Of a stretch of 64,000 nucleotides of DNA, positions 1-44,921 are shown in pieces. Each line of letters begins with the position of its first letter. Within the stretch, counting starts at the first letter, position 1. The notes under the pieces are model-generated. The model made no database searches. It was not told the origin of the DNA and was given only the letters and a program-made list of their open reading frames with translations. Made by a program: the position numbers and the translations under genes. Origin of the DNA: Bacteroidaceae bacterium (GTDB taxonomy: Bacteria; Bacteroidota; Bacteroidia; Bacteroidales; Bacteroidaceae); contig JAFYOS010000001.1 of NCBI GenBank assembly GCA_017560125.1, positions 20,235 through 84,234 of the forward strand, given 5' to 3'.

Positions 1-288
1 ATAGTTCTGGAAAAAGAACTGGTGAACGAAGTATACTGCGACAAGCGCGAACACTATGGCATCGACCCAGCTCATGACTTTCCTGAAGAATATGTTGTTC
101 GACTTCTTCCACCATCCCCACGGAATGAAACGGGTGGTGTAGTTGTCAATGATGAATGGTATTGCCACTATTCCCATCCAGCTCTTTACCCAGAAAAGGA
201 AGAGTATGTACAGTACCAGAATCGTTATAAGTTTAATGAGTGCCGCTCTTGTCATGTTTACATTGCGGCCGAGTATCCTGAATTCCAT
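1..288 (-). CDS. lepB: Signal peptidase I, 5' part only (mirror copy, cut by the window edge)
   Basis: This encodes the first 96 residues of the protein complete at 43479-44921: the membrane-anchored N-terminus up to just before the catalytic serine. The rest is absent because the window begins here. If this end were real the fragment would be inactive, since both catalytic residues lie further downstream. Confidence 0.8.
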   Translation of the reverse strand, partial: MEFRILGRNVNMTRAALIKLITILVLYILFLFWVKSWMGIVAIPFIIDNYTTRFIPWGWWKKSNNIFFRKVMSWVDAIVFALVAVYFVHQFFFQNY

Positions 289-349
289 CTGTTGCTTTTT
301 GAATGTTTTGTATTGTAGGTCTCTCTTGTCGGGTTCCGTATGCGGCTTG

Positions 350-1105
350 TCAGAACTTGAGCAGGTCACCCATTCCGAGCATGCCTTCGTGCTCCTTCAC
401 ATACTCGGCTGCAATTACTGCACCCAGGGCAAAGCCGTTGCGGTTGTGGGCATCGTGAGTGATGGTGATGGTGTCTTCATCCGAACCATAGGTGATGGTG
501 TGTATGCCGGGAACTTCGTCGCGGCGTATCGCGTCAATCTTAATCTCGGTGGGTCTAGGAACTGCGCCCTTGGTCACGGTACCATCGGGGTTGGTGAGGT
601 CACCCATTACCCAACTGAATTTGTGAACGATGTTATCGAGAATACCCTCGGCGAGTGTTATCGCTGTGCCGCTGGGGGCGTCGAGCTTGTGAATGTGATG
701 GGTCTCTTCAATCTTTACTCTGTAGTTGTCGAAGTTGCTCATAATCTTTGCAAGGTACTTGTTTACTGCCGAGAATATTGCCACTCCAAGGCTGAAATTG
801 CTTGCCCAGAACAGAGTTTTGCCTTCCTTTTCACACTTTTCGCGCATCTCGGCCTCGTGCTGGTGGAACCAGCCTGTACTGCCGCTCACAACCTTAACTC
901 CTGCCGCCATGGCCTGTATGCAGTTGTCGTATGCCACGGCCGGTGCAGTGAACTCTATGGCAACGTCGGCACTGGCGAAAGCCTCGCCTTTCATGTCGTC
1001 GCGGTTGTCGATGTCTATTATGGACACAATCTCGTGTCCTCTCTCCAGGGCAATCTTTTCAATGGTCTTGCCCATCTTTCCGTATCCAATAAGTGCAATT
1101 TTCAT
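350..1105 (-). CDS. dapB: 4-hydroxy-tetrahydrodipicolinate reductase (mirror copy)
   Basis: Identical to the copy at 42662-43417, which is described in full. The product has 251 residues with the N-terminal GYGKMG nucleotide-binding loop and the HHxxKLDAPSGT active-site block. It lies 61 bases before the truncated lepB fragment on the same strand. Confidence 0.95.
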   Translation of the reverse strand: MKIALIGYGKMGKTIEKIALERGHEIVSIIDIDNRDDMKGEAFASADVAIEFTAPAVAYDNCIQAMAAGVKVVSGSTGWFHQHEAEMREKCEKEGKTLFWASNFSLGVAIFSAVNKYLAKIMSNFDNYRVKIEETHHIHKLDAPSGTAITLAEGILDNIVHKFSWVMGDLTNPDGTVTKGAVPRPTEIKIDAIRRDEVPGIHTITYGSDEDTITITHDAHNRNGFALGAVIAAEYVKEHEGMLGMGDLLKF

Positions 1106-1126
1106 CTTCTTGTATTTATTTTGGTG

Positions 1127-1134
1127 CGAAGATA
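1127..1134 (-). promoter_or_regulatory. Possible -7 box of dapB (mirror copy)
   Basis: TATCTTCG on the minus strand, a near match to TAnnTTTG, 21 bases before the chosen dapB start. No good TTG lies at the expected upstream distance. Confidence 0.35.
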
Positions 1135-1177
1135 AGCAATTTTTCACTATAAAAGATTAATTTAATTATAAATAACA

Positions 1178-1205
1178 ATGCAGGCACCTGGGCGGGTACC
1201 TGCAT
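1178..1205 (-). terminator. Hairpin after the acyltransferase gene (mirror copy)
   Basis: Eleven-pair stem (ATGCAGGTACC with GGTGCCTGCAT, one G-T pair) in the gap between the acyltransferase gene and dapB, with a T-rich tail toward dapB. Mirror of 42562-42589. Confidence 0.65.
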
Positions 1206-1228
1206 CGTATATCTATGGTTTGTCAGAA

Positions 1229-2398
1229 TTATCTATTTACAAACTTCTTGCCTAGCCAGCGGCGTATAGGCTCGTCATAGAGTTTTAGGCAAAGGAAGGC
1301 AAGCAGGATGCTCGATGCCACTACAATCAAGGCCATGCCGGGGCAATCCTGCAAGGTGTAAATCTTTTTCTCAATGAGCCATGCGTAGAACAGGTACATT
1401 ATGGGGTAGTGTACTATGTATAGCGGGTACGATATGTCGCCAAGCAGGCTGTTTGCTTTGGCAGTGAAGGCGTTGCCGCTGCTTCCGCATGCGCCAATCC
1501 ATACGATGAACGGGAATATTGCCGCTATGCATACGAACTCGTACAGGCTGTTTGTGCTTATATCGCCGGCAGGGCCTATGTATGGTACCGAGAAGAGCCC
1601 GACGAGCATTATGCTGCATATCCAGAACGCGCCTTTTACCTTGCGAGGCCTGAAGTTCCTTGCTATGAGCATACCCATGGTGAAGGGGAACAGCATGCGC
1701 ACCAGTCCGCCCCAGAAATTAACTTCGTCTATTGTCCATCCCACGCCTATCATGTCGTATCCCGACACGTTTCCTATGAAGAACCATGCATGCGTAATAC
1801 CAAGGAGCACCGCAAGCGCTGCAAGTGCCTTTGTGGGCAAGCGGCGTATAAACAGGGCGTAAAGGATATTTCCTATGTATTCAAAGAAGAGCGACCAGCC
1901 CGGTCCGTTCAGTGGGAACATCTCGCCGTTGCCGCGTACCTCGTAGGGTACACCGGGCACAGCCGGTATCATGAACATGGTGAGCAACATTGCTGCCATC
2001 ACCCAACCCGTGGGTGCTGCGGTGGCGTCCCACTTTTCAAAACCGACGACTGCAAATGCGATTGTGCCTATAATCGCACCCATCACAAGCATGGGGTGCA
2101 GACGCACAAGACGGCGTTTGAAGAACTGCCATGTACTCATTTTTGCCCAACGGTCGTCATAGGCATAACTTATAACAAAACCCGATAGAATAAAGAAAAA
2201 ATCAACGGCAATGTGACCATGGTTGAGCGTAGTTATCAAACCGCTACCCACACCGTTTGTTGCCTCGGCAAAAGCAAACCCCTCGAAAATGTGATAGAAA
2301 AGTACAAGAACAGCAGCTACGCCACGCAAGCCGTCGAGCAACTCGTAATGAGGTTTTGTATCGGTAAATTCTACCGATGAAACTGTGTTTTTTTGCAT
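1229..2398 (-). CDS. OafA-type membrane acyltransferase (mirror copy)
   Basis: Identical to 41369-42538: 389 residues, polytopic, with the N-terminal LDGLRG...FYH block of acyltransferase family 3. Its first 30 bases overlap the end of the truncated Crp/Fnr-type frame. Confidence 0.9.
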   Translation of the reverse strand: MQKNTVSSVEFTDTKPHYELLDGLRGVAAVLVLFYHIFEGFAFAEATNGVGSGLITTLNHGHIAVDFFFILSGFVISYAYDDRWAKMSTWQFFKRRLVRLHPMLVMGAIIGTIAFAVVGFEKWDATAAPTGWVMAAMLLTMFMIPAVPGVPYEVRGNGEMFPLNGPGWSLFFEYIGNILYALFIRRLPTKALAALAVLLGITHAWFFIGNVSGYDMIGVGWTIDEVNFWGGLVRMLFPFTMGMLIARNFRPRKVKGAFWICSIMLVGLFSVPYIGPAGDISTNSLYEFVCIAAIFPFIVWIGACGSSGNAFTAKANSLLGDISYPLYIVHYPIMYLFYAWLIEKKIYTLQDCPGMALIVVASSILLAFLCLKLYDEPIRRWLGKKFVNR

Positions 2399-2655
2399 TT
2401 TATTTTTTTATTTTTGCGTGTAATAGTTACATCCCCTTCGAGACTGAACCATGTAGTGGTGTCTGTTCCGTCATGGTGGAAGATTGAACGTGTCACACCC
2501 TCTTCGATGAAATATACGCAGCGGTCAGTTATTCCGCTTTTTACAAGCATGGTCCCCTTTGGGTATTGCGCCCGTGTCATCCCTTCAAGCAAGGCTTGCA
2601 GTGCTTCCTCTCCGACCGGGTAGTGTGCCCTTATCTTTGCTGTAATATTCTTCAT
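2371..2655 (-). pseudogene. Truncated Crp/Fnr-type sensor domain (mirror copy)
   Basis: Identical to 41112-41396: 94 residues covering only the first half of a cyclic-nucleotide-binding-like domain, ending in a lysine-rich tail where the frame runs into the acyltransferase start. Confidence 0.6.
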
Positions 2656-2673
2656 CTTCGATTGATAGTGGCG

Positions 2674-2681
2674 CGAATATA
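2674..2681 (-). promoter_or_regulatory. Possible -7 box of the Crp-like/acyltransferase pair (mirror copy)
   Basis: TATATTCG on the minus strand, 18 bases before the Crp-like start. It diverges from the metG promoter about 100 bases away. Confidence 0.45.
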
Positions 2682-2775
2682 GCAATTTTGTGTCTAAGTA
2701 TGACGCTGTAACCGGCATATTGTGCGGTTTTGTGATTTCTTAATCCGCGTATGCGTGTATTTAAAATAAAATGGT

Positions 2776-2783
2776 TACTTTTG
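2776..2783 (+). promoter_or_regulatory. -7 box of metG (mirror copy)
   Basis: TACTTTTG, a perfect TAnnTTTG match, 50 bases before the metG start at 2834. It rules out an in-frame ATG at 2771 as the translation start, since that would precede transcription. Confidence 0.55.
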
Positions 2784-2833
2784 TAGGTTACAATAAAAAT
2801 CGCTCCGGACAAAAACAAAAAACAACATATCAC

Positions 2834-4891
2834 ATGGAAAAGAATTTCAAAAGAACTCTGGTGACATCGGCCCTGCCTTATGCCAACGGCCCGGTACACA
2901 TCGGTCACCTTGCAGGAGTGTATGTGCCTGCTGACATTTATGTACGTTATCTGCGTCTCAAGGGCGAGGATGTTCTCTTTATAGGCGGAAGCGACGAGCA
3001 TGGAGTGCCCGTTACACAGCGCGCCCGCAAGGAAGGAATTACTCCGCAGGATGTGGTTGACCGCTACCACAACATAATCAAGGATTCGTTCGAGGGCTTC
3101 GGCATATCGTTCGATGTGTATAGCCGTACGACTTCCGATACCCATCACAAGTTCGCTTCGGAATTCTTCCGCAAGCTCTACGATGACGGCAAACTCGTTG
3201 AACAGACTTCAAAACAGTTCTACGATGTGAAGAACGAGAAGTTTCTCACCGACCGTGATGTTGTTGGAGAGTGTCCTTACTGCCACAAGCAGGCTTACGG
3301 AAACCAGTGCGAGGAGGGATGCGGCCGTGCGCTCGAGCCTACAGAACTTATAAACCCGCGCTCCAAGGAGACCGGAGAGGCACCGGTGCTGAAGGAGACA
3401 AAGAACTGGTATCTGCCGCTCAATGAATACCAGCAGTGGCTCAAGGAGTGGATTCTTGAAAACCACAAGGAGTGGCGTCCCAATGTATATGGCCAGTGCA
3501 AGAGCTGGCTCGACATGGACCTGCAGCCACGTGCCATGACACGCGACCTTGACTGGGGAATACCGGTACCGGTAGAGGGTGCCGACGGCAAGGTTCTCTA
3601 TGTGTGGTTCGACGCGCCCATCGGGTATATCTCGAACACTAAGGAACTGTGCGACAAGAATCCTGCAAAGCATGGCTCTTGGGAGCAGTGGTGGCAGAGC
3701 GAGGACACACGTCTCGTGCACTTTATCGGCAAGGACAACATTGTGTTCCACTGTATCATATTCCCGGTTATGATGAAAGCTCACGGCAAGTATGTGATGC
3801 CCGAGAATGTTCCCAGCAATGAGTTCCTGAACCTCGAGGACGACAAGATATCTACCTCGCGCAACTGGGCCGTATGGCTCAATGAGTACCTTGTAGATTT
3901 CCCCGGAAAGCAGGATGTGCTGCGCTATGTGCTCACTGCCAATGCCCCCGAGACCAAGGACAACAATTTTACATGGAAGGATTTCCAGGCACGCAACAAT
4001 AACGAGCTTGTCGCTGTATACGGCAACTTCGTGAACCGTGCGCTTGTGCTTACAAAAAAATATTTCGACGGCAAGATTCCCGCTTGTGGCGAACTTACTG
4101 ACTATGACAAGGCTACGGTGGCCGAGTTTGTCGATGTGAAGGGCAAGGTTGAGCATCTTCTCGACCAGTACAAGTTCCGTGAGGCGCAGAAGGAGGCCAT
4201 GGAGCTTGCGCGCATAGGTAACCGTTATCTTGCCGAGACCGAGCCTTGGAAACTGGCCAAGACAGATATGAGCCGTGTGGCTACGATACTGAATCTGTCG
4301 TTGCAGCTTGTTGCCAACCTTTCTATCGTGTTCGAGCCGTTCTTGCCTTTCAGCAGCAGGAGGCTGCGCGAAATGCTCAACATGCCGTCGTTCGAGTGGG
4401 CAAGTCTTGGCAGCACTGAGCTGCTTGCCGTGGGACATGAGCTCGGTGAGGTGGGTCTTCTCTTCGAAAAGATAGAGGACGATGCTATCCAGGCGCAGCT
4501 CGACCGTCTTGAGCGCATAAAGAAAGAGAACGAGGCTGCCAACTACAAGGCCAATCCAATACGCCAGGAGTGTACTTTCGACGATTTCATGAAACTCGAC
4601 CTGCGCGTGGGTACAGTCCTTGAGTGCACAAAAGTTCCCAAGGCCGACAAACTGTTGCAGTTCAAAATTGATGACGGACTGGAGACACGTACTATTCTTT
4701 CGGGTATAGCAAAGCACTTCAACCCCGAGGAACTTGTGGGCAAGCAGGTGTGCTTCATTGCCAATCTGCCACCGCGCACATTGCGTGGTATCGTTAGCGA
4801 GGGAATGATTCTCAGCGCCGAGGACAACGAGGGTAAACTGTCATTACTCACCGTTACTCCCGCAACCAAGCCCGGAAGCGAGATAAAATAA
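2834..4891 (+). CDS. metG: Methionyl-tRNA synthetase (mirror copy)
   Basis: Identical to 38876-40933: 685 residues with HIGH at 22-25, a four-cysteine zinc knuckle at 147-163, KISTS at 338-342 and a fused C-terminal tRNA-binding domain from about 583. It heads the rightward run that ends at 15023. Confidence 0.97.
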
Positions 4892-4922
4892 ATTACTGAA
4901 GATCCCTTTGGGCCAAGCAATA

Positions 4923-6377
4923 ATGAGAGCAATGGGAAACGGCAATACACAGCAAGATCTTAAACATGCAGTCGCAAAGGGGTTTCTTTGGGGCGGCATG
5001 AGTAATGTGGTGTGCCAGTTTCTGAGCCTTCTCTTCGGAATATATCTGGCAAGGATACTTGGCCCCAATGACTACGGGCCTATAGGTATGCTTGCAATAT
5101 TCTCTGCAATAGCAGGCTCGTTGCAGGAGAGCGGCTTTGTCCAGGCTATAGCTAACCGGAAGAAGGTCGGCCACGACGACTACAATGCTGTGTTCTGGTT
5201 CAACATACTTGTTTCCGTCTTAATGTATGTCGCCCTGTACCTTTCTGCACCCATTATTGCTGATTTCTTTAACCAGCCTGTACTTGTACCGCTTTCAAGG
5301 TATAATTTCCTAGGGTTTGTCGTTGCGGCTTTCGGTATAGCACCTTCGGCATATCTTTTCCGTGAACTGAAAGTCAAGCAGAAGTCCATTGCGCTGATAT
5401 TGTCCATCGCCTTGTCGGGCGTTGTCGGGGTTGTAATGGCACTCAACGGATATTCCTATTGGGGCATAGCGACACAGAGCATTGTGTATGTGCTTGTGCG
5501 CACTGTTGTCTGCTGGTATTTTACTCCGTGGACACCTTCGTTGAAGGTGAATTTCGCGCCTTTGAAGTATCTTTTTGCCTTCAGCTACAGGCTGCTGATA
5601 ACAAGCGTATTCCAACGTTTCAACTGGAATGTGTTCTCTTTTATTCTGGGAAAATTCTATACCCGCATTGATGTGGGCAACTATACCAAGTCGGCGGAAT
5701 GGTTCAATATGGGTGGTGAAGTGGTCAACGGCATGGTGAATGCCGTGGCGCAGCCAGCACTTGCGAAGGTTGTCAATGACAGCGAACGGCAGCTGCGCGT
5801 TTTCAGGAAGATGTTACGTTTTACGGCTTTTGTATCTTTCCCGCTCATGCTGGGCCTGTCGCTGGTCTCCAAGGAACTGATTGTGCTTGTGATTACCGAA
5901 AAATGGCTGGAGAGTGCCGGGATGTTGCAGATGTTGGCCGTGTGGGGCGCATTCATGCCGATACAGTCCATGTTTACCAATCTTCTGGTAAGTTGCGGAC
6001 GCTCACGTACATTCATGTGGTGTACTATTGTGCAGGGATTGCTTATGTTCGGAATTCTGTTGATCATCCATAGGATGGGCATAAAGCCGATGATAGTTTC
6101 CTATTGTGTGTTCAATGTTTTATGGTTGTTTGTTTGGTTATATTTCGCCAAGAAGGAGATTGATATTAAACTTTCCATGTTCATGCGCGATATACTGCCG
6201 TATATGCTGCTGTCGTTATTTGTAATGGCCGTTGCATATGTTTCGACGATGGCGATAGAGGACATGTATCTGCTGTTTGTTTCAAAGGTGGCGATAGCAG
6301 CCTCGCTTTATGTGTTTATTGCACGTTTGATACGCAGCGAGGAACTTAATGAGATAAAGGAGTTTCTGTATAAATGA
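4923..6377 (+). CDS. Wzx-type polysaccharide flippase (mirror copy)
   Basis: Identical to 37390-38844: about 484 residues, polytopic throughout. It starts 31 bases after metG and is followed 19 bases later by a GT4 glycosyltransferase. Confidence 0.88.
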   Translation: MRAMGNGNTQQDLKHAVAKGFLWGGMSNVVCQFLSLLFGIYLARILGPNDYGPIGMLAIFSAIAGSLQESGFVQAIANRKKVGHDDYNAVFWFNILVSVLMYVALYLSAPIIADFFNQPVLVPLSRYNFLGFVVAAFGIAPSAYLFRELKVKQKSIALILSIALSGVVGVVMALNGYSYWGIATQSIVYVLVRTVVCWYFTPWTPSLKVNFAPLKYLFAFSYRLLITSVFQRFNWNVFSFILGKFYTRIDVGNYTKSAEWFNMGGEVVNGMVNAVAQPALAKVVNDSERQLRVFRKMLRFTAFVSFPLMLGLSLVSKELIVLVITEKWLESAGMLQMLAVWGAFMPIQSMFTNLLVSCGRSRTFMWCTIVQGLLMFGILLIIHRMGIKPMIVSYCVFNVLWLFVWLYFAKKEIDIKLSMFMRDILPYMLLSLFVMAVAYVSTMAIEDMYLLFVSKVAIAASLYVFIARLIRSEELNEIKEFLYK

Positions 6378-6396
6378 AAAAATGAGGCTTGGTGAT

Positions 6397-7485
6397 ATGA
6401 AAAAGATACTGTTCGATAATCAGATGTTCACATTCCAGCGTTTCGGTGGTGTGACACGTTATTTTGCCGATCTCATGTACAACTTGCCGGCAGGTGAGTT
6501 CGGGGCGGAGATTCCTATGCGCTACTGCGAGAACCACTATGTCACTGAAACATACGGGCATGAGTATGACAAGATAACCTTCCCCCGCAATTATCGTCTT
6601 CGCAGACAGATATATATACTTGTCAACAAGTATCTTGCAACGAAGGCTGTAAAGAACGACGACTACGATATATTCCACCCCACATATTTCAATCCATATT
6701 TCCTCAAGCATGTCAAGAAAAGGCAGAAGCCTTTTGTGCTGACCATTCATGACATGACATTCGAACGGTATCCGCAGGATGTGCTCATATATGACCGTAC
6801 AATCCCGCACAAGAAACTGCTGATATCGGAGGCCGACCATATAATCGCAGTGAGCGAGAACACGAAACGCGATATTGTGGAATTGTTGGGTACCGACCCT
6901 GCAAAAATAAGTGTAGTTCATCACGGCTACCGTATGATAGGCACGCCGGCTTCACAATTGTTTGACCGGTATGTGCTGTATGTAGGCGAAAGGAAGGGTT
7001 ACAAGAACTTCCTTCCATGGCTTTCGGCAATACGTCCGATATTCAACCTTGACCCTAACCTCAAGGTTGTATGTACCGGATCTCCTTTCAGCAGAGCCGA
7101 ACTGAAACTGTTCGCCAAATGGAATATTGCAGACCGTCTTGTACATATATCGGCAAACGATGCTCAAATGGCATCTCTCTATAAATATGCGTTGTGTTTC
7201 GTGTTCCCGTCGCATTACGAGGGGTTCGGCATTCCCATCCTTGAGGCGTTTGCAAATGGTTGCCCCGTGTGCCTGAGCAATGCCAGCTGTTTCCCCGAAG
7301 TGGCCGGTGATGCCGGGCTTTTCTTCAACCCGGGCGACGCACAGTCAATGCAGGATGCTCTCAAGGAGATGCTTGTAAGTGCCGCGCTACGCGATGAACT
7401 ACGGCATAAGGGGCTTGAGAGGAGCAAGGAATTTTCTCTTGAAAAGATGGTGGAGAATACCTGTAGAGTATATCGTAAACTATAA
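6397..7485 (+). CDS. GT4 glycosyltransferase (mirror copy)
   Basis: Identical to 36282-37370: 362 residues with the C-terminal EGFGIPILEAFANG nucleotide-sugar block. An in-frame ATG at 6382 would add five residues. Confidence 0.92.
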   Translation: MKKILFDNQMFTFQRFGGVTRYFADLMYNLPAGEFGAEIPMRYCENHYVTETYGHEYDKITFPRNYRLRRQIYILVNKYLATKAVKNDDYDIFHPTYFNPYFLKHVKKRQKPFVLTIHDMTFERYPQDVLIYDRTIPHKKLLISEADHIIAVSENTKRDIVELLGTDPAKISVVHHGYRMIGTPASQLFDRYVLYVGERKGYKNFLPWLSAIRPIFNLDPNLKVVCTGSPFSRAELKLFAKWNIADRLVHISANDAQMASLYKYALCFVFPSHYEGFGIPILEAFANGCPVCLSNASCFPEVAGDAGLFFNPGDAQSMQDALKEMLVSAALRDELRHKGLERSKEFSLEKMVENTCRVYRKL

Positions 7486-7498
7486 TGTAGCTGGCGGT

Positions 7499-8719
7499 AT
7501 GAGGTACAGGATATCGGAACTCCAGCGTTTGTGGCCAATAGCCAAACGGCGCATTTGCAGCTCGATTGTTGCATGTGTGCATAGAGTATTTTCGAATGAA
7601 AAGATTTTGAAGAATGTCTTCGGCAAGCGAAGCGGCAAACGTGTGCTACTTTGTCATTTGCCCGAGGCCTTCAAGTTCAGGCAGTTGCCTAAATATCATT
7701 CCAATTTCACGGAATGCCATGTCATAGCAAGGTGCTTCGACCGTTTAGGATACATTGTAGACTGTTCATCAAGGGCGAAAACAGGGATTGACTACTCTCC
7801 CTACGACATCGTGTGCGGTATAAACGGCAATGCGTATATGGGCTCGTTCAGCAGTGATGCGGGTATTAATCCGCTCAGAATTTTTTACTCCGTTGGCGCG
7901 GAAACCTGTTTCAACTACAGGTGTACTTCGATGCGCAACATCGAGTTCCGTGAACGGCATGGACACTGGCTGCTGGGAGCCAACCGCTATATCCCGGGTG
8001 ATCCCAGGAACTATTACGAGGCACGTTTCAGCGATGCAGTGATATGCCTTGGTGACAGCTATGTGCTGCGGCAGTTCCTGAACGAAGAGTGTGATGCTAC
8101 CATGTATCACCAGTTGTCGGCGTTCTATTTCAAGGTCGTTGATGAGGCCGCCGACAAGGATTTTGTCGCTTGCCGCAGGAATATTCTCTGGTTCGGCAGC
8201 TCGGGCATGCTGCATAAGGGGCTTGACATTGCCATAGATTTTGCCGTCTCCCATCCCGAATTCACTCTTCACATTTGCGGCGGCAGCCGGCAGGAGAGTG
8301 ACTTCTGGAGATATTACGGGCCGGTGATAGAGTCGCATGACAATATTGTAATGCATGGATTTGTTGATATAGAGTCAAAGGAGTATGCTGCGGTATTGTC
8401 GCAGTGCGGCATACTGCTCAACCCGTCTGTCTCGGAAGGCGGAGCCGTGTCCGTGCTCAATGTCCTGGGCAACGCTCCGATGTTTCCTGTATACAGCAAG
8501 GGTACCGGGCTCGACCTTTCCGCAGTAGGAGTGGAAGTCGCAAATGTTGCATACAGGGATTTCGAGGAGGCGCTGCTTGCTGTCGACAGCCTGTCGCCAG
8601 GCGAGTTTTCACGTAAGGCTTGGGCCGCATATCATACGGTCAGGGACAATTATACTCTTGAAAAGTATGAAGAGGGCATGTACAATTGTTTGAAAGGGAT
8701 AATAGATAAAAACAGATAA
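7499..8719 (+). CDS. Glycosyltransferase, GT-B fold (mirror copy)
   Basis: Identical to 35048-36268: 406 residues with a GT4-like C-terminal half (ILWFGSSGMLHKGLD, then SVSEGGAVSVLN). It starts 13 bases after the preceding glycosyltransferase. Confidence 0.8.
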   Translation: MRYRISELQRLWPIAKRRICSSIVACVHRVFSNEKILKNVFGKRSGKRVLLCHLPEAFKFRQLPKYHSNFTECHVIARCFDRLGYIVDCSSRAKTGIDYSPYDIVCGINGNAYMGSFSSDAGINPLRIFYSVGAETCFNYRCTSMRNIEFRERHGHWLLGANRYIPGDPRNYYEARFSDAVICLGDSYVLRQFLNEECDATMYHQLSAFYFKVVDEAADKDFVACRRNILWFGSSGMLHKGLDIAIDFAVSHPEFTLHICGGSRQESDFWRYYGPVIESHDNIVMHGFVDIESKEYAAVLSQCGILLNPSVSEGGAVSVLNVLGNAPMFPVYSKGTGLDLSAVGVEVANVAYRDFEEALLAVDSLSPGEFSRKAWAAYHTVRDNYTLEKYEEGMYNCLKGIIDKNR

Positions 8720-8723
8720 TATC

Positions 8724-11315
8724 ATGACAGGTAAATTTGATTGGAAGGGGCTTGTGCCGCATATTGTTGCCATTTTGGTGTTCCTGCTGCTTACGCTGGT
8801 GTACTTTTCACCGGTTCTTGAGGGCAAGGACATACGACAGGCCGATGCCGTAGGTTCCATGGGATGGGGCAAGGATGCCCGTGACTATCACGAAGAGACA
8901 GGTGAGTATTCATACTGGTCGAACTCCATGTTCTCCGGTATGCCGTGCAACTATACATTCTCCCCTCAACCGGCCAATGTGTTCAAGAACTTGAGCAGGA
9001 TCGTCACGTTGAACATTTTCGGTGCATCGGCACGTCATATAGGCTGTATATTCGCGACGTTCCTTGGCTTCTATATACTACTGCTTGCTCTCGGGTGCAG
9101 GTCGTGGCTCAGCATTGCCGGTGCGATTGTATATACGCTCGGCTCATACAATTTCATTATAATCAACGCCGGACACATGAACAAGAGCCTTGTGATAGCA
9201 ACTATGGCTCCGCTTATAGGAGGTATCATCCTTTGCTATAGGCGCAAGTTGCTTGCCGGTGCATTGCTTACACTTATTGCTGCCGGTCTTAATGTTTACT
9301 GGAGTCATCAGCAGGTAAGCTATTATGTGTTGCTTACCGCAGTAATCATAGCTCTGGTGTATCTTGTCTATGCATTCCGCGAAAAATGGCTTCCGTACTA
9401 TTTCAAGGCTACGGGTGTCCTTGCTGTGGTTGCCTTGTTGGCCGCTGCTCCTGCCGTGGGTATACTGTTGCCGACGAATGACTATGCAAAGGAGTCGATG
9501 CGAGGCGGCTCGGAACTCAAAGTCAAGGATGGAGAGAAGGCTTCGGGGCTTGATGCCGATTATGCCTTCGCCTGGAGTTACGGAAAGGCCGAGAGCCTTA
9601 CACTCCTTATCCCCGGTTTCTACGGTTCGTCGTCACATTACGACGTGGGTGAGGATAGCCGGCTCTATTCTGCATACAGGAACTATGTCTCCAAGGCAAT
9701 GACAAGCCAGTATGTCGATGCTGTGATGCAGCACAACCCGGGTGCGGGCGAGGCCGAAGCGTTACAGTTCATAAACGCCAACATGGAGATAAGGGGAGAG
9801 ATAAACCGCGAAGCAGCAAGGCAGGCCGCTTCGTTTGCAAGTGCCGCGCCGACATATTGGGGCGACCAGCCTTTTACCGAAGGTCCTGTATATGCCGGAG
9901 CGATAGTGTGCTTCCTGTTCGTGCTCGGACTTTTTGTGGTACGTGGCCCCGAAAAATGGTGGCTGCTTGCAGCAACTGTATTCACGCTGCTCCTTGCATG
10001 GGGACGCAACCTCCCGGGTATAAACAACTTCCTGTTCGAATATCTGCCTTTCTACAACAAGTTCCGCGCTCCGTCAATGTCACTTGTGATAACAACAATG
10101 GCTATGGCTACACTTGCTGTGCTTGCAGTGAAGGAGTACATGAGAATGGTACTTTCAAGTAATGCCGGTGAAAAGAAGCTCGCAATGAAAGGCCTGTACA
10201 TCTCTTCGGGTATCGTAGGGGCATTGGCTCTTGTTTTTGCCTTGTCGGGCGGTTCGCTGATGAATTTTGTGTCGGCCAATGATGCAGCTGTAGCTCAGGT
10301 GCCCGAGATATACGAAGCCTTGAAAACCGAACGTGCTTCGATGCTTGCCGCCGATGCATGGCGTTCGTTCCTTTTCATAGCTGCAGCCGCAGTCCTCCTG
10401 TTTGCATATTCATACGGAAAGCTCAAGGCAACCTTGGTTGTACTTGCAATGGGAGTACTTTTCCTTTTCGACATGTGGCCGGTGAGCAAGCGCTTCCTGT
10501 CCGATGATGATTTCATGTCTAAGGAAAGAACAACTGAAATACGCTTTACCGATGTCGACAGGCAGATAAAGGAACTGGCAGGGGATGACCCGCACTATCG
10601 TGTGTTCAATCTTGTCGACAATCCGTTCAACGAGGCATTCACATCTTACAAGCATAACTCCATAGGTGGTTACAGTCCGGCCAAACTGGCAAGATACCAG
10701 GATCTTATAGACAGGTATCTCTCAAAAATGAACTGGAATGTCATTTCTATGCTGAATACGCGCTTCATCATAACCGGTGACGGTGTGGCCGACAATACTC
10801 CGGGAATGGCGCAGCAGCACGGCTTGCCAGGGGCCTTCGGCCACTGCTGGCTTGTCGACAGCATCGTATGGGTGAGTGGCGCGGATGAGGAGATTGCTGC
10901 AATAGAGAATATTGACAAGAATACTGCATATGTCGATGAGGCTTGGCGTGACAAGGTGCCCGATGCCGCACAGTATTGCAACGGCGCATCCGGCGAGATT
11001 GTGCTGGACGAGTACCGCAACCCGGGAAACATTACCTACAGGAGCAGTTGCAAGGCTCCCAAGCTTGCGGTATTCTCCGAGATATACTACAAGACATGGA
11101 AGGCTTATATTGATGGCAAGGAGGTGTCCCCTGTACGCGCCAACTATGTATTGCGCGCATTGCCTCTGCCGGCAGGCGACCATACAATAGAGTTCAAGTG
11201 CGTTGATGAGGTCATGATAAAGAGCCATGAATGGTCGTTCTATCTCTCCATTCTTGTTGGAGTGTTGATAGTGGCTTTGGCAGGTTTCATGCTATATACG
11301 GGATTCAAAAAGTGA
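8724..11315 (+). CDS. YfhO-family membrane protein (mirror copy)
   Basis: Identical to 32452-35043: 863 residues, many membrane helices and a soluble C-terminal region. The last base of its TGA is the first base of the next gene's ATG at 11315, so the two are translationally linked. Confidence 0.88.
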   Translation: MTGKFDWKGLVPHIVAILVFLLLTLVYFSPVLEGKDIRQADAVGSMGWGKDARDYHEETGEYSYWSNSMFSGMPCNYTFSPQPANVFKNLSRIVTLNIFGASARHIGCIFATFLGFYILLLALGCRSWLSIAGAIVYTLGSYNFIIINAGHMNKSLVIATMAPLIGGIILCYRRKLLAGALLTLIAAGLNVYWSHQQVSYYVLLTAVIIALVYLVYAFREKWLPYYFKATGVLAVVALLAAAPAVGILLPTNDYAKESMRGGSELKVKDGEKASGLDADYAFAWSYGKAESLTLLIPGFYGSSSHYDVGEDSRLYSAYRNYVSKAMTSQYVDAVMQHNPGAGEAEALQFINANMEIRGEINREAARQAASFASAAPTYWGDQPFTEGPVYAGAIVCFLFVLGLFVVRGPEKWWLLAATVFTLLLAWGRNLPGINNFLFEYLPFYNKFRAPSMSLVITTMAMATLAVLAVKEYMRMVLSSNAGEKKLAMKGLYISSGIVGALALVFALSGGSLMNFVSANDAAVAQVPEIYEALKTERASMLAADAWRSFLFIAAAAVLLFAYSYGKLKATLVVLAMGVLFLFDMWPVSKRFLSDDDFMSKERTTEIRFTDVDRQIKELAGDDPHYRVFNLVDNPFNEAFTSYKHNSIGGYSPAKLARYQDLIDRYLSKMNWNVISMLNTRFIITGDGVADNTPGMAQQHGLPGAFGHCWLVDSIVWVSGADEEIAAIENIDKNTAYVDEAWRDKVPDAAQYCNGASGEIVLDEYRNPGNITYRSSCKAPKLAVFSEIYYKTWKAYIDGKEVSPVRANYVLRALPLPAGDHTIEFKCVDEVMIKSHEWSFYLSILVGVLIVALAGFMLYTGFKK

Positions 11316-12064
11316 TGACTATGGCTCTGCAACCCAAGTTTTCGATAATAACAATTACGTTCAATGCGGCCGATGCGATAGAGCCTACATTGAACAGCGT
11401 AAAGGAGCAGACCTACAGGAACTATGAATATCTGCTTATAGACGGCGGTTCCAGTGACGGTACCGTGGAAAAGGCCAAGGCCAGTGGTATCGGCTTCGCG
11501 CATATTGTGAGTGAGCGTGACAACGGTCTGTACGATGCCATGAACAAGGGTATGGCTCTTGCGACTGGTGATTACCTCTGTTTTCTTAACGCCGGTGACG
11601 CTTTCCATGCGCCTGATACCTTGCAGACAATAGTCGATGCCATTGCAGGGGAGAAGGAGTTGCCACATGTCCTGTACGGGGAGACTGCCGAGGTTGACGA
11701 GGAACGGAATTTCGTGCGCATGAGGCGTCTTAAGGCACCCGAGGTGCTGACATGGCGCAGTTTCAAGGACGGGATGCTCGTTTGCCATCAGGCTTTCTAT
11801 GCAAGGCGTGACATCGCGCCCATGTATAACCTTGAATACCGCCTTTCGTCCGATGTCGACTGGTGCATCAGGGTCATGAAGGCTTCGTCAAAATTGGTTA
11901 ATGTCAACGCCACGGTAGTTGATTATTTGCAGAACGGATTATCTTTGCAGCATCACCGTGCATCGCTCATAGAGCGTTTCAAGGTGATGAGCAGGCATTA
12001 TGGCCTGTTGCCTACGGTCGGGCGGCACATATGGTTCGTGCTGCGTGCTGTAATAAAACGATAA
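11315..12064 (+). CDS. GT2 glycosyltransferase (mirror copy)
   Basis: Identical to 31703-32452: 249 residues, GT-A fold, with DGGSSDGT and the LNAGD metal-binding block. Followed 23 bases later by pepP. Confidence 0.93.
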   Translation: MTMALQPKFSIITITFNAADAIEPTLNSVKEQTYRNYEYLLIDGGSSDGTVEKAKASGIGFAHIVSERDNGLYDAMNKGMALATGDYLCFLNAGDAFHAPDTLQTIVDAIAGEKELPHVLYGETAEVDEERNFVRMRRLKAPEVLTWRSFKDGMLVCHQAFYARRDIAPMYNLEYRLSSDVDWCIRVMKASSKLVNVNATVVDYLQNGLSLQHHRASLIERFKVMSRHYGLLPTVGRHIWFVLRAVIKR

Positions 12065-12087
12065 GAACAACCAAATATCTAACCATT

Positions 12088-13479
12088 ATGTTTGCAAAAG
12101 AGACTTATATTGCACGCCGCAAGGCGTTGAAAGAGAGAATGGGCAGTGGTCTGCTGTTGTTCCTGGGCAATAATTTTACAGGAATGAACTATGCCGACAA
12201 TGCCTATCATTTCCGCCAGGATTCTACATTCCTGTACTATTTCGCATCGGACTACGAGGGGCTTGCCGCTGTTATAGATATAGATAACGACAGGGAGATA
12301 ATCTTCGGCAACGAGCTTACAATAGACGATATCGTATGGACCGGCGTACAGCCTACCATCAGGGAGAAGAGCGAGCGTGTGGGTATTGTCATGACGCGTC
12401 CTATGGCTGACCTGGCAACCTATGTGAAGGATGCTCAGGCCAAGGGACAGAAGGTGCACTTCCTCCCTCCCTACCGTGGCGAGCATCAGGTGTGGCTGCA
12501 GGAGCTGCTTGGGATAAATCCTGCCGAGCAGGCCGCAAAAGCATCGCTGGAGTTCGTAAAGGCGGTGATTTCCCAGCGTAACTACAAGAGCGACGAGGAG
12601 ATAGCACAGATAGAGGAGGCGGTAAACGTCTCTGTCGACATGCATTGTGCGGCAATGCGCGCCGTGCGTCCGGGCACTACCGAGGCCGAAATCGTTTCGG
12701 TTGTGCAGGCCGAGGCCGCAAAGCACAACTTCGGTCTTTCGTTCCCCATAATAGCGACCGTGAACGGACAGACACTGCACAACCATGCGTATGGAACGAC
12801 ACCGCTGAAGGAGGGGCAGATGTTCCTGCTCGATTCGGGTTGCGAGAATGCGATGCATTATGCAGGTGACCTTACGACTACAATGCCTGTAGGCGCACAC
12901 TTCACCGAACAGCAGCGTACAGTGTGCAATATATTGCGCCGTGCACACCTGACTGCGCTTGACAACATAAGACCGGGCATCGAGTACCGCGAGGTGCACA
13001 GGCTCGTGCTCACCGAAATCGCGAAGGGCATGATAGATCTTGGCCTTATGAAGGGCGACCCCGTAGAGGCTACCATAAAGGGTGCCACATGCATGTTCAT
13101 GCCTCATGGCCTGGGCCACATGATGGGTCTAGACGTGCATGACATGGAGAACTTCGGCGAGGTGAATGTGGGTTACGAGGAGGGACGTGCAAAGAGCACG
13201 CTCTTCGGCTGGAAATCACTGCGTCTTGCCAAGGCTCTTGAGCCTGGTTTCGTGTTCACTGTCGAGCCGGGTATATACTTTATCCCCGATCTCATTGACA
13301 AATGGCGTGCCGAGAAACAGTTCACCGATTTCATCTGCTACGACAAACTCGATGCATGGAAGACATTCGGCGGCATGCGTGGCGAGGAGGATTACTATGT
13401 GTTCGAGGACGGTGCACGCCGTCTTGGAAAGTACAAGCCAATGTCTCCCGAGGAGATTGAGGCCGAGCACAACAAGTGA
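12088..13479 (+). CDS. pepP: Xaa-Pro aminopeptidase (mirror copy)
   Basis: Identical to 30288-31679: 463 residues of the M24B family with all five metal ligands in place. It lies five bases before the GT-C gene. Confidence 0.93.
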   Translation: MFAKETYIARRKALKERMGSGLLLFLGNNFTGMNYADNAYHFRQDSTFLYYFASDYEGLAAVIDIDNDREIIFGNELTIDDIVWTGVQPTIREKSERVGIVMTRPMADLATYVKDAQAKGQKVHFLPPYRGEHQVWLQELLGINPAEQAAKASLEFVKAVISQRNYKSDEEIAQIEEAVNVSVDMHCAAMRAVRPGTTEAEIVSVVQAEAAKHNFGLSFPIIATVNGQTLHNHAYGTTPLKEGQMFLLDSGCENAMHYAGDLTTTMPVGAHFTEQQRTVCNILRRAHLTALDNIRPGIEYREVHRLVLTEIAKGMIDLGLMKGDPVEATIKGATCMFMPHGLGHMMGLDVHDMENFGEVNVGYEEGRAKSTLFGWKSLRLAKALEPGFVFTVEPGIYFIPDLIDKWRAEKQFTDFICYDKLDAWKTFGGMRGEEDYYVFEDGARRLGKYKPMSPEEIEAEHNK

Positions 13480-13484
13480 TAGTA

Positions 13485-15023: not shown

Positions 15024-15172
15024 CGGAAGCGGTTAACGAACCTGAATCGTTTCTTGCGTGTGTTGATGTTCGGACGATACCCTTTATTGTACTTCCTGCG
15101 GCGTAACTTCGCTATTGCCTTGGCTGCAAAGGCAATGACCAATATCCCTATTATCGAAATCCAAACGTACAT
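14999..15172 (-). CDS. 57-residue basic membrane miniprotein (mirror copy)
   Basis: Identical to 28595-28768: one N-terminal hydrophobic helix followed by an arginine/lysine-rich tail. Convergent with the GT-C gene. Confidence 0.5.
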   Translation of the reverse strand: MYVWISIIGILVIAFAAKAIAKLRRRKYNKGYRPNINTRKKRFRFVNRFRHLEGLGD

Positions 15173-15486
15173 AATCCTGTCAGTTTAAATGGTTTCAAGC
15201 CAATCTTACTATCGGCAGTTTTTGTATGCAACACCTAATGATCGGGGTTTTAGATCATTCTCTCGACGGCAAAGTAGGCAAAAAGATTGATATAATCAAA
15301 CCTGCGGTGTATATTTTTCTAAAATTAACAAAAAAACAATATCTATCCAGGTTGTTCCGTATGTTCTGCTGTTCACGAAAACAATAGCTGTTGTTGATAA
15401 CTTTCGGTTGATTTAACATTCCTCTTCCGGTATATTCATTATTTTTGCATATCATCCGTTTTGGAAATAAAAATCCCCTTACATAT
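15173..15486. promoter_or_regulatory. Divergent promoter region between the miniprotein and nrdD (mirror copy)
   Basis: A 314-base gap. It holds the leftward miniprotein promoter (TTG and TACTTTG at 15270-15299, minus strand), a leader hairpin at 15237-15259 and the rightward nrdD -7 box TATTTTTG at 15440-15447. Nothing else was recognised. Confidence 0.5.
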
Positions 15487-17694: not shown

Positions 17695-17698
17695 TTCC

Positions 17699-18199: not shown

Positions 18200-18204
18200 A
18201 GGGT

Positions 18205-18840: not shown

Positions 18841-18921
18841 TTGATTTTTGTCTTATGAAAGAGAATCCGCCCGATATCCTTCAAGGCTTCGGCATGTTCT
18901 TGATTATGGGCGGCAGCATGC

Positions 18922-19569: not shown

Positions 19570-19589
19570 TAATTTCCACAATAAAGGAA

Positions 19590-28280: not shown

Positions 28281-28594
28281 ATATGTAAGGGGATTTTTAT
28301 TTCCAAAACGGATGATATGCAAAAATAATGAATATACCGGAAGAGGAATGTTAAATCAACCGAAAGTTATCAACAACAGCTATTGTTTTCGTGAACAGCA
28401 GAACATACGGAACAACCTGGATAGATATTGTTTTTTTGTTAATTTTAGAAAAATATACACCGCAGGTTTGATTATATCAATCTTTTTGCCTACTTTGCCG
28501 TCGAGAGAATGATCTAAAACCCCGATCATTAGGTGTTGCATACAAAAACTGCCGATAGTAAGATTGGCTTGAAACCATTTAAACTGACAGGATT
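28281..28594. promoter_or_regulatory. Divergent promoter region between nrdD and the miniprotein gene
   Basis: A 314-base AT-rich gap. Leftward: TATTTTTG at 28320-28327 (minus strand), 40 bases before nrdD, without a well-placed TTG. Rightward: TTG at 28468-28470, a 20-base spacer and TACTTTG at 28491-28497, giving a leader of about 90 bases for the miniprotein. The leader contains a 7-bp hairpin (AATGATC/GATCATT) at 28508-28530. I see no known riboswitch and no NrdR-box pair. Confidence 0.5.
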
Positions 28595-38875: not shown

Positions 38876-40933
38876 TTATTTTATCTCGCTTCCGGGCTTG
38901 GTTGCGGGAGTAACGGTGAGTAATGACAGTTTACCCTCGTTGTCCTCGGCGCTGAGAATCATTCCCTCGCTAACGATACCACGCAATGTGCGCGGTGGCA
39001 GATTGGCAATGAAGCACACCTGCTTGCCCACAAGTTCCTCGGGGTTGAAGTGCTTTGCTATACCCGAAAGAATAGTACGTGTCTCCAGTCCGTCATCAAT
39101 TTTGAACTGCAACAGTTTGTCGGCCTTGGGAACTTTTGTGCACTCAAGGACTGTACCCACGCGCAGGTCGAGTTTCATGAAATCGTCGAAAGTACACTCC
39201 TGGCGTATTGGATTGGCCTTGTAGTTGGCAGCCTCGTTCTCTTTCTTTATGCGCTCAAGACGGTCGAGCTGCGCCTGGATAGCATCGTCCTCTATCTTTT
39301 CGAAGAGAAGACCCACCTCACCGAGCTCATGTCCCACGGCAAGCAGCTCAGTGCTGCCAAGACTTGCCCACTCGAACGACGGCATGTTGAGCATTTCGCG
39401 CAGCCTCCTGCTGCTGAAAGGCAAGAACGGCTCGAACACGATAGAAAGGTTGGCAACAAGCTGCAACGACAGATTCAGTATCGTAGCCACACGGCTCATA
39501 TCTGTCTTGGCCAGTTTCCAAGGCTCGGTCTCGGCAAGATAACGGTTACCTATGCGCGCAAGCTCCATGGCCTCCTTCTGCGCCTCACGGAACTTGTACT
39601 GGTCGAGAAGATGCTCAACCTTGCCCTTCACATCGACAAACTCGGCCACCGTAGCCTTGTCATAGTCAGTAAGTTCGCCACAAGCGGGAATCTTGCCGTC
39701 GAAATATTTTTTTGTAAGCACAAGCGCACGGTTCACGAAGTTGCCGTATACAGCGACAAGCTCGTTATTGTTGCGTGCCTGGAAATCCTTCCATGTAAAA
39801 TTGTTGTCCTTGGTCTCGGGGGCATTGGCAGTGAGCACATAGCGCAGCACATCCTGCTTTCCGGGGAAATCTACAAGGTACTCATTGAGCCATACGGCCC
39901 AGTTGCGCGAGGTAGATATCTTGTCGTCCTCGAGGTTCAGGAACTCATTGCTGGGAACATTCTCGGGCATCACATACTTGCCGTGAGCTTTCATCATAAC
40001 CGGGAATATGATACAGTGGAACACAATGTTGTCCTTGCCGATAAAGTGCACGAGACGTGTGTCCTCGCTCTGCCACCACTGCTCCCAAGAGCCATGCTTT
40101 GCAGGATTCTTGTCGCACAGTTCCTTAGTGTTCGAGATATACCCGATGGGCGCGTCGAACCACACATAGAGAACCTTGCCGTCGGCACCCTCTACCGGTA
40201 CCGGTATTCCCCAGTCAAGGTCGCGTGTCATGGCACGTGGCTGCAGGTCCATGTCGAGCCAGCTCTTGCACTGGCCATATACATTGGGACGCCACTCCTT
40301 GTGGTTTTCAAGAATCCACTCCTTGAGCCACTGCTGGTATTCATTGAGCGGCAGATACCAGTTCTTTGTCTCCTTCAGCACCGGTGCCTCTCCGGTCTCC
40401 TTGGAGCGCGGGTTTATAAGTTCTGTAGGCTCGAGCGCACGGCCGCATCCCTCCTCGCACTGGTTTCCGTAAGCCTGCTTGTGGCAGTAAGGACACTCTC
40501 CAACAACATCACGGTCGGTGAGAAACTTCTCGTTCTTCACATCGTAGAACTGTTTTGAAGTCTGTTCAACGAGTTTGCCGTCATCGTAGAGCTTGCGGAA
40601 GAATTCCGAAGCGAACTTGTGATGGGTATCGGAAGTCGTACGGCTATACACATCGAACGATATGCCGAAGCCCTCGAACGAATCCTTGATTATGTTGTGG
40701 TAGCGGTCAACCACATCCTGCGGAGTAATTCCTTCCTTGCGGGCGCGCTGTGTAACGGGCACTCCATGCTCGTCGCTTCCGCCTATAAAGAGAACATCCT
40801 CGCCCTTGAGACGCAGATAACGTACATAAATGTCAGCAGGCACATACACTCCTGCAAGGTGACCGATGTGTACCGGGCCGTTGGCATAAGGCAGGGCCGA
40901 TGTCACCAGAGTTCTTTTGAAATTCTTTTCCAT
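38876..40933 (-). CDS. metG: Methionyl-tRNA synthetase with C-terminal tRNA-binding domain
   Basis: It charges tRNA-Met with methionine. Class I catalytic core: HIGH at residues 22-25, a zinc knuckle with C147, C150, C159 and C163, and KISTS at 338-342 in place of KMSKS, the usual Bacteroidetes variant. The anticodon-binding helices follow. From about residue 583 there is a fused EMAP-II/Trbp111-type domain ([12 protein letters not shown]) used for dimerisation and tRNA binding. It has 685 residues. The ATG at 40933 is chosen since the -7 box at 40984-40991 lies between it and an upstream in-frame ATG. It is the first gene of the leftward glycan run, which may make the downstream genes follow its expression. 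Confidence 0.97.
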
Positions 40934-40983
40934 GTGATATGTTGTTTTTTGTTTTTGTCCGGAGCGATTTTTATTGTAACCTA

Positions 40984-40991
40984 CAAAAGTA
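40984..40991 (-). promoter_or_regulatory. -7 box of metG
   Basis: TACTTTTG on the minus strand, a full TAnnTTTG match 50 bases before the metG start. A TTG at the right distance is not seen. It is divergent from the promoter of the Crp-like frame. Confidence 0.55.
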
Positions 40992-41085
40992 ACCATTTTA
41001 TTTTAAATACACGCATACGCGGATTAAGAAATCACAAAACCGCACAATATGCCGGTTACAGCGTCATACTTAGACACAAAATTGC

Positions 41086-42538: not shown

Positions 42539-42561
42539 TTCTGACAAACCATAGATATACG

Positions 42562-42589
42562 ATGCAGGTACCCGCCCAGGTGCCTGCAT
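42562..42589 (+). terminator. Terminator hairpin after the acyltransferase gene
   Basis: ATGCAGGTACC pairs with GGTGCCTGCAT (11 pairs, one G-T) over a six-base loop, then TGTTATTTAT. It separates the acyltransferase unit from dapB. Confidence 0.7.
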
Positions 42590-42632
42590 TGTTATTTATA
42601 ATTAAATTAATCTTTTATAGTGAAAAATTGCT

Positions 42633-42640
42633 TATCTTCG
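42633..42640 (+). promoter_or_regulatory. Possible -7 box of dapB
   Basis: TATCTTCG, 21 bases before the dapB ATG. The same motif type recurs before ychF at 62405. No clear TTG element. Confidence 0.4.
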
Positions 42641-42661
42641 CACCAAAATAAATACAAGAAG

Positions 42662-43417
42662 ATGAAAATTGCACTTATTGGATACGGAAAGATGGGCAAG
42701 ACCATTGAAAAGATTGCCCTGGAGAGAGGACACGAGATTGTGTCCATAATAGACATCGACAACCGCGACGACATGAAAGGCGAGGCTTTCGCCAGTGCCG
42801 ACGTTGCCATAGAGTTCACTGCACCGGCCGTGGCATACGACAACTGCATACAGGCCATGGCGGCAGGAGTTAAGGTTGTGAGCGGCAGTACAGGCTGGTT
42901 CCACCAGCACGAGGCCGAGATGCGCGAAAAGTGTGAAAAGGAAGGCAAAACTCTGTTCTGGGCAAGCAATTTCAGCCTTGGAGTGGCAATATTCTCGGCA
43001 GTAAACAAGTACCTTGCAAAGATTATGAGCAACTTCGACAACTACAGAGTAAAGATTGAAGAGACCCATCACATTCACAAGCTCGACGCCCCCAGCGGCA
43101 CAGCGATAACACTCGCCGAGGGTATTCTCGATAACATCGTTCACAAATTCAGTTGGGTAATGGGTGACCTCACCAACCCCGATGGTACCGTGACCAAGGG
43201 CGCAGTTCCTAGACCCACCGAGATTAAGATTGACGCGATACGCCGCGACGAAGTTCCCGGCATACACACCATCACCTATGGTTCGGATGAAGACACCATC
43301 ACCATCACTCACGATGCCCACAACCGCAACGGCTTTGCCCTGGGTGCAGTAATTGCAGCCGAGTATGTGAAGGAGCACGAAGGCATGCTCGGAATGGGTG
43401 ACCTGCTCAAGTTCTGA
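42662..43417 (+). CDS. dapB: 4-hydroxy-tetrahydrodipicolinate reductase
   Basis: It reduces dehydrated 4-hydroxy-tetrahydrodipicolinate with NAD(P)H in the diaminopimelate/lysine pathway, which supplies peptidoglycan. The Rossmann loop GYGKMG is at residues 7-12. The catalytic and substrate-binding block EETHHIHKLDAPSGTA is near residue 135, and the C-terminal THDAHNRNGFALGAV is also conserved. The 251 residues are slightly short, as usual in this phylum. A start 14 codons upstream overlaps the -7 box region, so MKIALIGYG is chosen. lepB follows after 61 bases, with no terminator between, so they are probably co-transcribed. Confidence 0.96.
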   Translation: MKIALIGYGKMGKTIEKIALERGHEIVSIIDIDNRDDMKGEAFASADVAIEFTAPAVAYDNCIQAMAAGVKVVSGSTGWFHQHEAEMREKCEKEGKTLFWASNFSLGVAIFSAVNKYLAKIMSNFDNYRVKIEETHHIHKLDAPSGTAITLAEGILDNIVHKFSWVMGDLTNPDGTVTKGAVPRPTEIKIDAIRRDEVPGIHTITYGSDEDTITITHDAHNRNGFALGAVIAAEYVKEHEGMLGMGDLLKF

Positions 43418-43478
43418 CAAGCCGCATACGGAACCCGACAAGAGAGACCTACAATACAAAACATTCAAAAAGCAACAG

Positions 43479-44921
43479 ATGGAATTCAGGATACTCGGCC
43501 GCAATGTAAACATGACAAGAGCGGCACTCATTAAACTTATAACGATTCTGGTACTGTACATACTCTTCCTTTTCTGGGTAAAGAGCTGGATGGGAATAGT
43601 GGCAATACCATTCATCATTGACAACTACACCACCCGTTTCATTCCGTGGGGATGGTGGAAGAAGTCGAACAACATATTCTTCAGGAAAGTCATGAGCTGG
43701 GTCGATGCCATAGTGTTCGCGCTTGTCGCAGTATACTTCGTTCACCAGTTCTTTTTCCAGAACTATGTCATACCCACATCGTCATTGGAAAAATCGCTGC
43801 TCGTCGGCGACTACCTCTTTGTAAGCAAGGTCAACTACGGCCCTCGCAAGCCTCATACACCGCTGAGCATGCCGCTCACGCAGCACACCCTGCCCACCGG
43901 TGGCAAGAGCTACATAGACGCCATACAATGGGACTATGAGCGCGTTCCCGGCTTCGAGGAGATAGAGCGCGGCGATATCGTCGTGTTCAATTACCCTGCA
44001 GGCGATGTAGCAACGACAAACCCCGAGGTCATAGACTTCCATGCACTGTGCTACCACTACGGCATGTCGGAACTTGCCGACAGAATGCCCTCCGACAGCA
44101 TGGCTACGGCAGAGAACATGCGCGAATACTACGCAGAGTGCTACAAGACCGGACTGGAATATATTAAAAGAAACCCACAGATATTCGGCGAAATAACACA
44201 CCGCCCTGTCGACCGCAGGGAGAACTATGTAAAGAGATGTCTTGGACTCCCTGGCAACACACTTGAGATAAAGGACAAGATAGTATATATCGATGGCAAG
44301 GCCATCGAACAGCCCACCAACGTACAGTTCAGCTACAATGTAGAACTCACACAGACCATTCCCGAGTGGCTTCGTCGTGAACTGAGAATAAGTACCGAGG
44401 ACTTGAACATGCTTTACCAGACAGGACAGGTTCCATTGACACACGAGAGCTATGAGAAACTGAAGAACAACAAGCGCCTTGTAAAGAGCATCAGCATTGT
44501 CAACAACGACTACACACAAGGCATATACCCCCTCAATGGCAACAAGGGATGGACAGTCGACAACTACGGCCCGGTATGGATTCCCAAGAGAGGCGAGAGC
44601 ATAAAGCTCGACATGGACAACATTACAGTCTATGAACGCCCCATCGTAGCATACGAGGGCAACACCCTCGATATTAAGGATGGCAGGATATTTATCAACG
44701 GAGTGGAGACCGACAGCTACACTTTCAAGATGGACTACTACTGGATGATGGGCGATAACCGCCACAACAGTGCCGACTCACGCTGCTGGGGATTCGTTCC
44801 CGAGGACCACATCGTTGGCAAGGCACTCTTCGTATGGCTTTCGCTTGACAAGGACCGCGGCTGGTTCGACGGCAAGATACGCTGGAACCGCCTCTTCCGC
44901 AGTGTCAGCAGCTTCGACTGA
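43479..44921 (+). CDS. lepB: Signal peptidase I
   Basis: It cleaves signal peptides from secreted proteins at the outer face of the inner membrane, using a Ser/Lys dyad. Two N-terminal hydrophobic segments (ITILVLYILFLFWV, then VDAIVFALVAVYFVHQFFF) precede the serine box PTSSLEKSLLVGDYLFVSK. The lysine box is ENYVKRCLGLPGN, and GDNRHNSADSRCWGFVP closes the active site. At 480 residues it has the long insertion between boxes seen in Bacteroidetes enzymes. The start is uncertain: ATG at 43398 would overlap dapB, and 43479 or 43512 are better. The inverted repeat ends within this gene at 43766, but the frame is unbroken, so the gene is intact. Confidence 0.95.
   Translation: MEFRILGRNVNMTRAALIKLITILVLYILFLFWVKSWMGIVAIPFIIDNYTTRFIPWGWWKKSNNIFFRKVMSWVDAIVFALVAVYFVHQFFFQNYVIPTSSLEKSLLVGDYLFVSKVNYGPRKPHTPLSMPLTQHTLPTGGKSYIDAIQWDYERVPGFEEIERGDIVVFNYPAGDVATTNPEVIDFHALCYHYGMSELADRMPSDSMATAENMREYYAECYKTGLEYIKRNPQIFGEITHRPVDRRENYVKRCLGLPGNTLEIKDKIVYIDGKAIEQPTNVQFSYNVELTQTIPEWLRRELRISTEDLNMLYQTGQVPLTHESYEKLKNNKRLVKSISIVNNDYTQGIYPLNGNKGWTVDNYGPVWIPKRGESIKLDMDNITVYERPIVAYEGNTLDIKDGRIFINGVETDSYTFKMDYYWMMGDNRHNSADSRCWGFVPEDHIVGKALFVWLSLDKDRGWFDGKIRWNRLFRSVSSFD

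Follow-up and report, generated by a model that had tools for sequence, protein, structure and literature searches.

The window analysed here is a 64,000-bp stretch of DNA (G000:C16:1-64000, minus strand) from the Bacteroidaceae genome bin GCA_017560125.1 (G000), whose assembly comprises 2,612,092 bp in 37 contigs. It carries a series of bacterial genes arranged as a giant palindrome. As a preliminary description of this DNA had claimed, positions 1-43766 form a perfect palindrome without spacer, centred at 21883/21884, with 0 mismatches among the 21,883 pairs compared. The limits given in that description did not hold, being effects of the window edges: window position 64000 is the genuine end of contig C16, and the apparent right limit at 43766 is the left edge of the window mirrored. 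When the remaining 20,234 bp of the 84,234-bp contig are added, complete C16 is its own reverse complement over 42,117 pairs, with no mismatch, no N and no spacer, and as 84,234 equals 2 x 42,117, the palindrome takes up the contig end to end. Positions 43767-64000 are not single-copy, as their mirror copy lies outside the window at C16:64001-84234 (100% match), so that 45000-64000, earlier proposed as a single-copy control for read depth, cannot serve as one. A control set of 201 loci outside C16 (1,972,078 bases with some overlap, including about 6 kb of N) contained 30 perfect spacer-free palindromes of at least 20 bp. Because the longest of these is 46 bp (counted twice through two overlapping loci), far below the length seen in C16, chance is excluded as the source of the symmetry.

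Each arm is housekeeping DNA of a chromosome. Genes were named from Pfam matches of 29 open reading frames (ORFs), 2 of them without any match, and shorter ORFs lay outside the scan. From the centre outwards the order is gyrB, M15 dipeptidase, nitroreductase, a radical SAM gene beside nrdD, glycosyltransferase and polysaccharide genes, metG, acyltransferase, dapB, signal peptidase, frdBA-like genes, mnmG, uvrC, dtd, polyprenyl synthetase, polA and ychF (Table 1); the identities proposed earlier for gyrB, nrdD, metG and dapB agree with the Pfam matches. The closest named loci of the M15 gene are Bacteroidaceae metagenome-assembled genomes from ruminant gut, the best being L055 (RGIG6171, sheep rectum) with 90% protein identity. 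Neither tRNA genes nor Rfam families were found in the window. A foreign element at the centre of the palindrome was considered and rejected, as the first 202 bases of the arm have no match in the 43 other genomes of the genus, in plasmids or in phages.

Table 1. Features of the palindrome and its arms, in window coordinates
Feature	Position	Strand	Basis and remarks
Second arm, inner 21,883 bp (C16:42118-64000), extending past the window to C16:84234	1..21883	-	Perfect complement of 21884-43766
Palindrome centre, without spacer	21883..21884	.	Sequence read directly
Arm, 42,117 bp, outer end = end of C16	21884..64000	+	Reverse-complement comparison of the whole contig
First 182 bp of the arm, intergenic, without similarity to relatives, plasmids or phages	21884..22065	+	L055 match starts at arm base 183
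gyrB	22189..24138	+	Pfam DNA_gyraseB; mirror copy at 19629-21578, minus
M15 family D-ala-D-ala dipeptidase	24147..24845	+	Pfam Peptidase_M15; adjoins gyrB also in L055 (RGIG6171) and G000:C22
Radical SAM gene, probably nrdD activase	25568-26068		Pfam Fer4_12; beside nrdD, after it
nrdD	26073..28322	-	Pfam NRDD
metG	38876..40996	-	Pfam tRNA-synt_1g; diverged copy on G000:C13
dapB	42620..43417	+	Pfam DapB_N/C
Signal peptidase gene, after dapB	43398-44921		Pfam Peptidase_S26
Arm, outer 20,234 bp (frdBA-like, mnmG, uvrC, dtd, polA, ychF)	43767..64000	+	Pfam; mirrored at C16:64001-84234

Judged from gene order in related genomes, the fold in C16 interrupts a conserved junction. L055 is collinear with arm bases 183-2964 (87.8% identity) and 3222-11924 (76.5%), with one additional ORF of about 1.1 kb between them, and its gyrB is preceded by tRNA-Glu and by an 84-aa ORF at the position of rpsT. 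The order in another relative, G019, is ftsA, ftsZ, recO, tRNA-Glu, rpsT and gyrB (named from translations without a family search, except for the tRNA). Altogether, tRNA-Glu lies upstream of gyrB, past the position of the fold, in 9 loci with gyrB, and the contigs of L056 and L057 stop before that point. The genus was then covered by a search of 44 genomes including G000, using as queries the L055 stretch that ends at rpsT, and GyrB at E <= 1e-250. GyrB was matched in 36 of the 43 other genomes (7 gave no match at this threshold), and in 35 of these 36 one contig holds both, with the rpsT end 185-1763 bp upstream of gyrB. The remaining genome, G046, has the rpsT end and gyrB on separate contigs (C6 and C68), both of which stop within the gap; the contig ends (L212, L213 and L057) have 57 bp in common at 94.7% identity. 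Given this range of distances and the G046 contigs that end there, the length of the rpsT-gyrB gap varies, and at least one other assembly has broken in it. A second GyrB match was found in none of the 36 genomes, and G000 has three (two on C16, one on C22).

The same neighbourhood bears on a proposal in the preliminary description, that the fold is where a linear replicon ends in a covalently closed hairpin, with the sequence read through it. Reading through such an end is generally known to yield an inverted repeat without spacer, but in L055 the stretch collinear with the arm beside the fold belongs to an ordinary chromosomal neighbourhood, the tRNA-Glu of the relatives lies beyond the fold position, and no telomere resolvase is present among the 29 ORFs scanned with Pfam. 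The proposal found no support here, and we consider it the least likely of the readings weighed.

Within G000, much of the arm has a diverged counterpart, which is spread over C13, C22, C24 and C37 and shows 69-83% identity in the longer matches. The third copy of gyrB, on C22, has 88% protein identity; mnmG has a diverged copy on C13 (81% identity), and metG and dapB have theirs on C13 as well. The rpsT side matches C22 only, besides two 76-bp matches at the tRNA-Glu position (C12 and C1). Since the bin holds this separate version of much of the arm, C16 is probably a contig of a second species of the same Bacteroidales genus that was binned with a sister species. Likewise, the bin as a whole seems to hold DNA from at least two species of one genus, because gyrB, mnmG, metG and dapB each occur in two diverged versions. 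The contamination of 6.41% listed for G000 fits such misbinning. The duplication of essential genes within the bin, described earlier as free of divergence, is partly a matter of binning: besides the two mirror copies, gyrB, mnmG, metG and dapB each have a third, diverged copy elsewhere in G000.

The type of assembly can be read from the contig ends. Comparison of 1 kb from both ends of all G000 contigs gave exact overlaps of 141 bp for four pairs of ends: C25/C30, the two ends of C17, C8/C23 and C1/C23. This exact overlap, found repeatedly, speaks for a de Bruijn assembly of short reads at a k of about 141, and MEGAHIT uses 141 as its default largest k. The finding also bears on a long-read origin, in which an adapter-skipped fold-back read would have carried its palindrome into the contig. 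Errors of this type have been described for long-read assemblies, where long palindromes in contigs are taken as a strong signal of misassembly (PMC5084376), and the contigs presented in that BIGMAC paper resemble C16 in consisting of a sequence followed by its own reverse complement. They are ascribed there to adapter-skipped chimeric reads, whereas C16 stands among short-read marks, the 141-bp overlaps, and the de Bruijn graph is probably where its fold originated. We regard a long-read origin as extremely unlikely.

Taken together, with a probability of roughly 0.93, C16 would be one ordinary 42,117-bp chromosomal segment that was output forwards and backwards by the assembly and then misbinned. 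We arrive at this verdict because the junction is conserved in relatives, the contig is probably misbinned, the bin bears the marks of a short-read graph and real cases are rare. The contig is self-complementary without a spacer, and the junction at its centre is missing in relatives. The preliminary description had likewise preferred a fold-back or assembly artefact, and the conserved junction, the diverged gene set in the bin and the 141-bp overlaps now make this the best-supported explanation. In the proposed course of events, a de Bruijn path would have run, within the variable gap between rpsT and gyrB, into either a small number of fold-back chimeric reads or a short self-complementary stretch. 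In a bidirected graph, the path would then cross a self-complementary edge and continue on its own reverse strand, and the output would be the arm followed by its exact reverse complement, both sides stopping at one and the same outer break. The palindromic contig would finally have been binned with the sister species. The exactness, the zero spacer and the end-to-end symmetry would all follow, because the path turns onto its own reverse complement. An odd k prevents self-complementary k-mers (PMC6061703), but (k+1)-mers may nonetheless be self-complementary. We infer, rather than observe, which assembler was used, what triggered the turn at the centre and that the cell lacks the structure. 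The literature searched for this artefact contained no description of palindromic contigs from short reads. Related phenomena that have been reported include interrupted palindromes inside short reads, produced by library preparation from historic DNA (PMC3946424), and other kinds of assembly error (PMC7111523, PMC12424758).

Were the structure real, the chromosome of the C16 species would recently have gained an inverted duplication of 42 kb or more through a break, hairpin capping and replication, much like the terminus repeats of Lactobacillus delbrueckii ssp. bulgaricus. At the terminus of that organism, inverted repeats measuring 38-76 kb occur naturally around centres of 1-8.8 kb (PMC5345009), and they are like C16 in having inverted arms of tens of kilobases. 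However, the centres of the L. bulgaricus repeats are unique sequence, their limits vary among strains, pseudogenes occur in them and two draft strains showed twofold depth, according to the same source, whereas C16 has a spacer of 0 and no mismatch, and its repeat fills the contig exactly. Comparable repeats are also rare: in the survey reported there, repeats of more than 8 kb with a centre of less than 10 kb occurred in 5 of 1368 complete circular genomes, namely three L. bulgaricus genomes and two others with repeats of 8.7-9.4 kb; circularised Streptomyces chromosomes are mentioned as well (PMC5345009). Inverted duplications further arise in Escherichia coli lacking SbcCD and RecA (PMC3315005). 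Like C16, these are mirrored about a short palindrome, but they were induced in the double mutant by an interrupted palindrome of 85 bp or 246 bp, and no comparable evidence exists for C16. The single GyrB match in each of the 36 other genomes speaks against a real duplication, as does the outer end of C16, which no readable contig end of G000 overlaps by at least 15 bp, a weak test since C16 is probably foreign to the bin. A spacer-free duplication of at least 42 kb, containing gyrB, metG, nrdD, polA and other core genes without divergence in a gut Bacteroidales, is on this evidence very unlikely.

Several observations weigh against the fold-back artefact. The symmetry alone is no proof, as a real spacer-free duplication would presumably collapse to an identical contig; C16 stops exactly at both arm ends, and a collapsed real repeat would stop there too. 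At gyrB, GC skew switches from positive on the upstream side to negative on the downstream side in 6 of 6 sequences (measured over at most 16 kb per flank, less in L055 and G019). This would fit a terminus and is a point for a real duplication, but gene direction could produce the switch equally well. A trigger at the centre was not found: the first 182 bp of the arm have no alignable counterpart among the relatives, and the rpsT-gyrB gaps of L055 and G019 contain no palindrome of at least 10 bp. Nor did a palindrome-free sequence of the C16 species turn up. Three more end overlaps in the bin measure 136, 122 and 116 bp rather than 141 bp. Finally, no end-to-end palindrome occurs among the 33 other readable contigs of G000, by a test of the first and last 1 kb that misses off-centre ones; the fold-back error is therefore not systematic in this bin. 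These 33 contigs remain after C4, C7 and C32 were dropped, in which the stretches read were all N; their apparent symmetry came from the N stretches, and they were rejected as further palindromic contigs.

Either a natural palindrome or a small number of chimeric reads may have seeded the fold at the centre of C16. As a trigger, a natural palindrome was looked for in the gap between rpsT and gyrB of relatives without success: L055 and G019 have none of at least 10 bp there, and none of at least 14 bp lies at the break in G046. Palindromes do appear to have halted a path elsewhere in the G000 assembly. The 3' end of C15 (L187) is exactly a 22-bp perfect palindrome, the only such case among 68 readable ends; 22 would be k+1 for a first k of 21, an assembler default. 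Since ends of this type are expected only about 1.6e-5 times by chance (68 x 4^-11), an interrupted path seems the source of this one.

Although the palindrome was confirmed and even enlarged in the data, the structure is most likely not real, and the value of the case lies in quality control. Because of C16, core genes appear in too many copies in a genome meant to represent one species, and DNA from two species of the same genus is combined; a simple self-reverse-complement test on contigs would catch such cases. Long palindromes without a spacer are not expected to last in bacterial chromosomes, and a real structure of this kind would run counter to that.

Other palindromes and contigs deserve brief mention. 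Just downstream of gyrB, G019 has a natural perfect spacer-free palindrome of 46 bp (L028:17309), and palindromes of 30 and 24 bp lie near gyrB in L023 and L024, respectively; all three are possibly terminators. Contig ends of relatives near gyrB are close to a palindrome in 1 of 7 cases (L023, 64 bp from the centre of the 30-bp palindrome). Within the bin, the 42,427-bp contig C17 (G000:C17:1-42427; L209, L210 and L211) is probably circular, because its 141-bp ends are identical. With PHROGs matches among 10 scanned ORFs that include terminase large subunit, portal, major head protein, tape measure, tail proteins and endolysin, C17 looks like the genome of a tailed phage.

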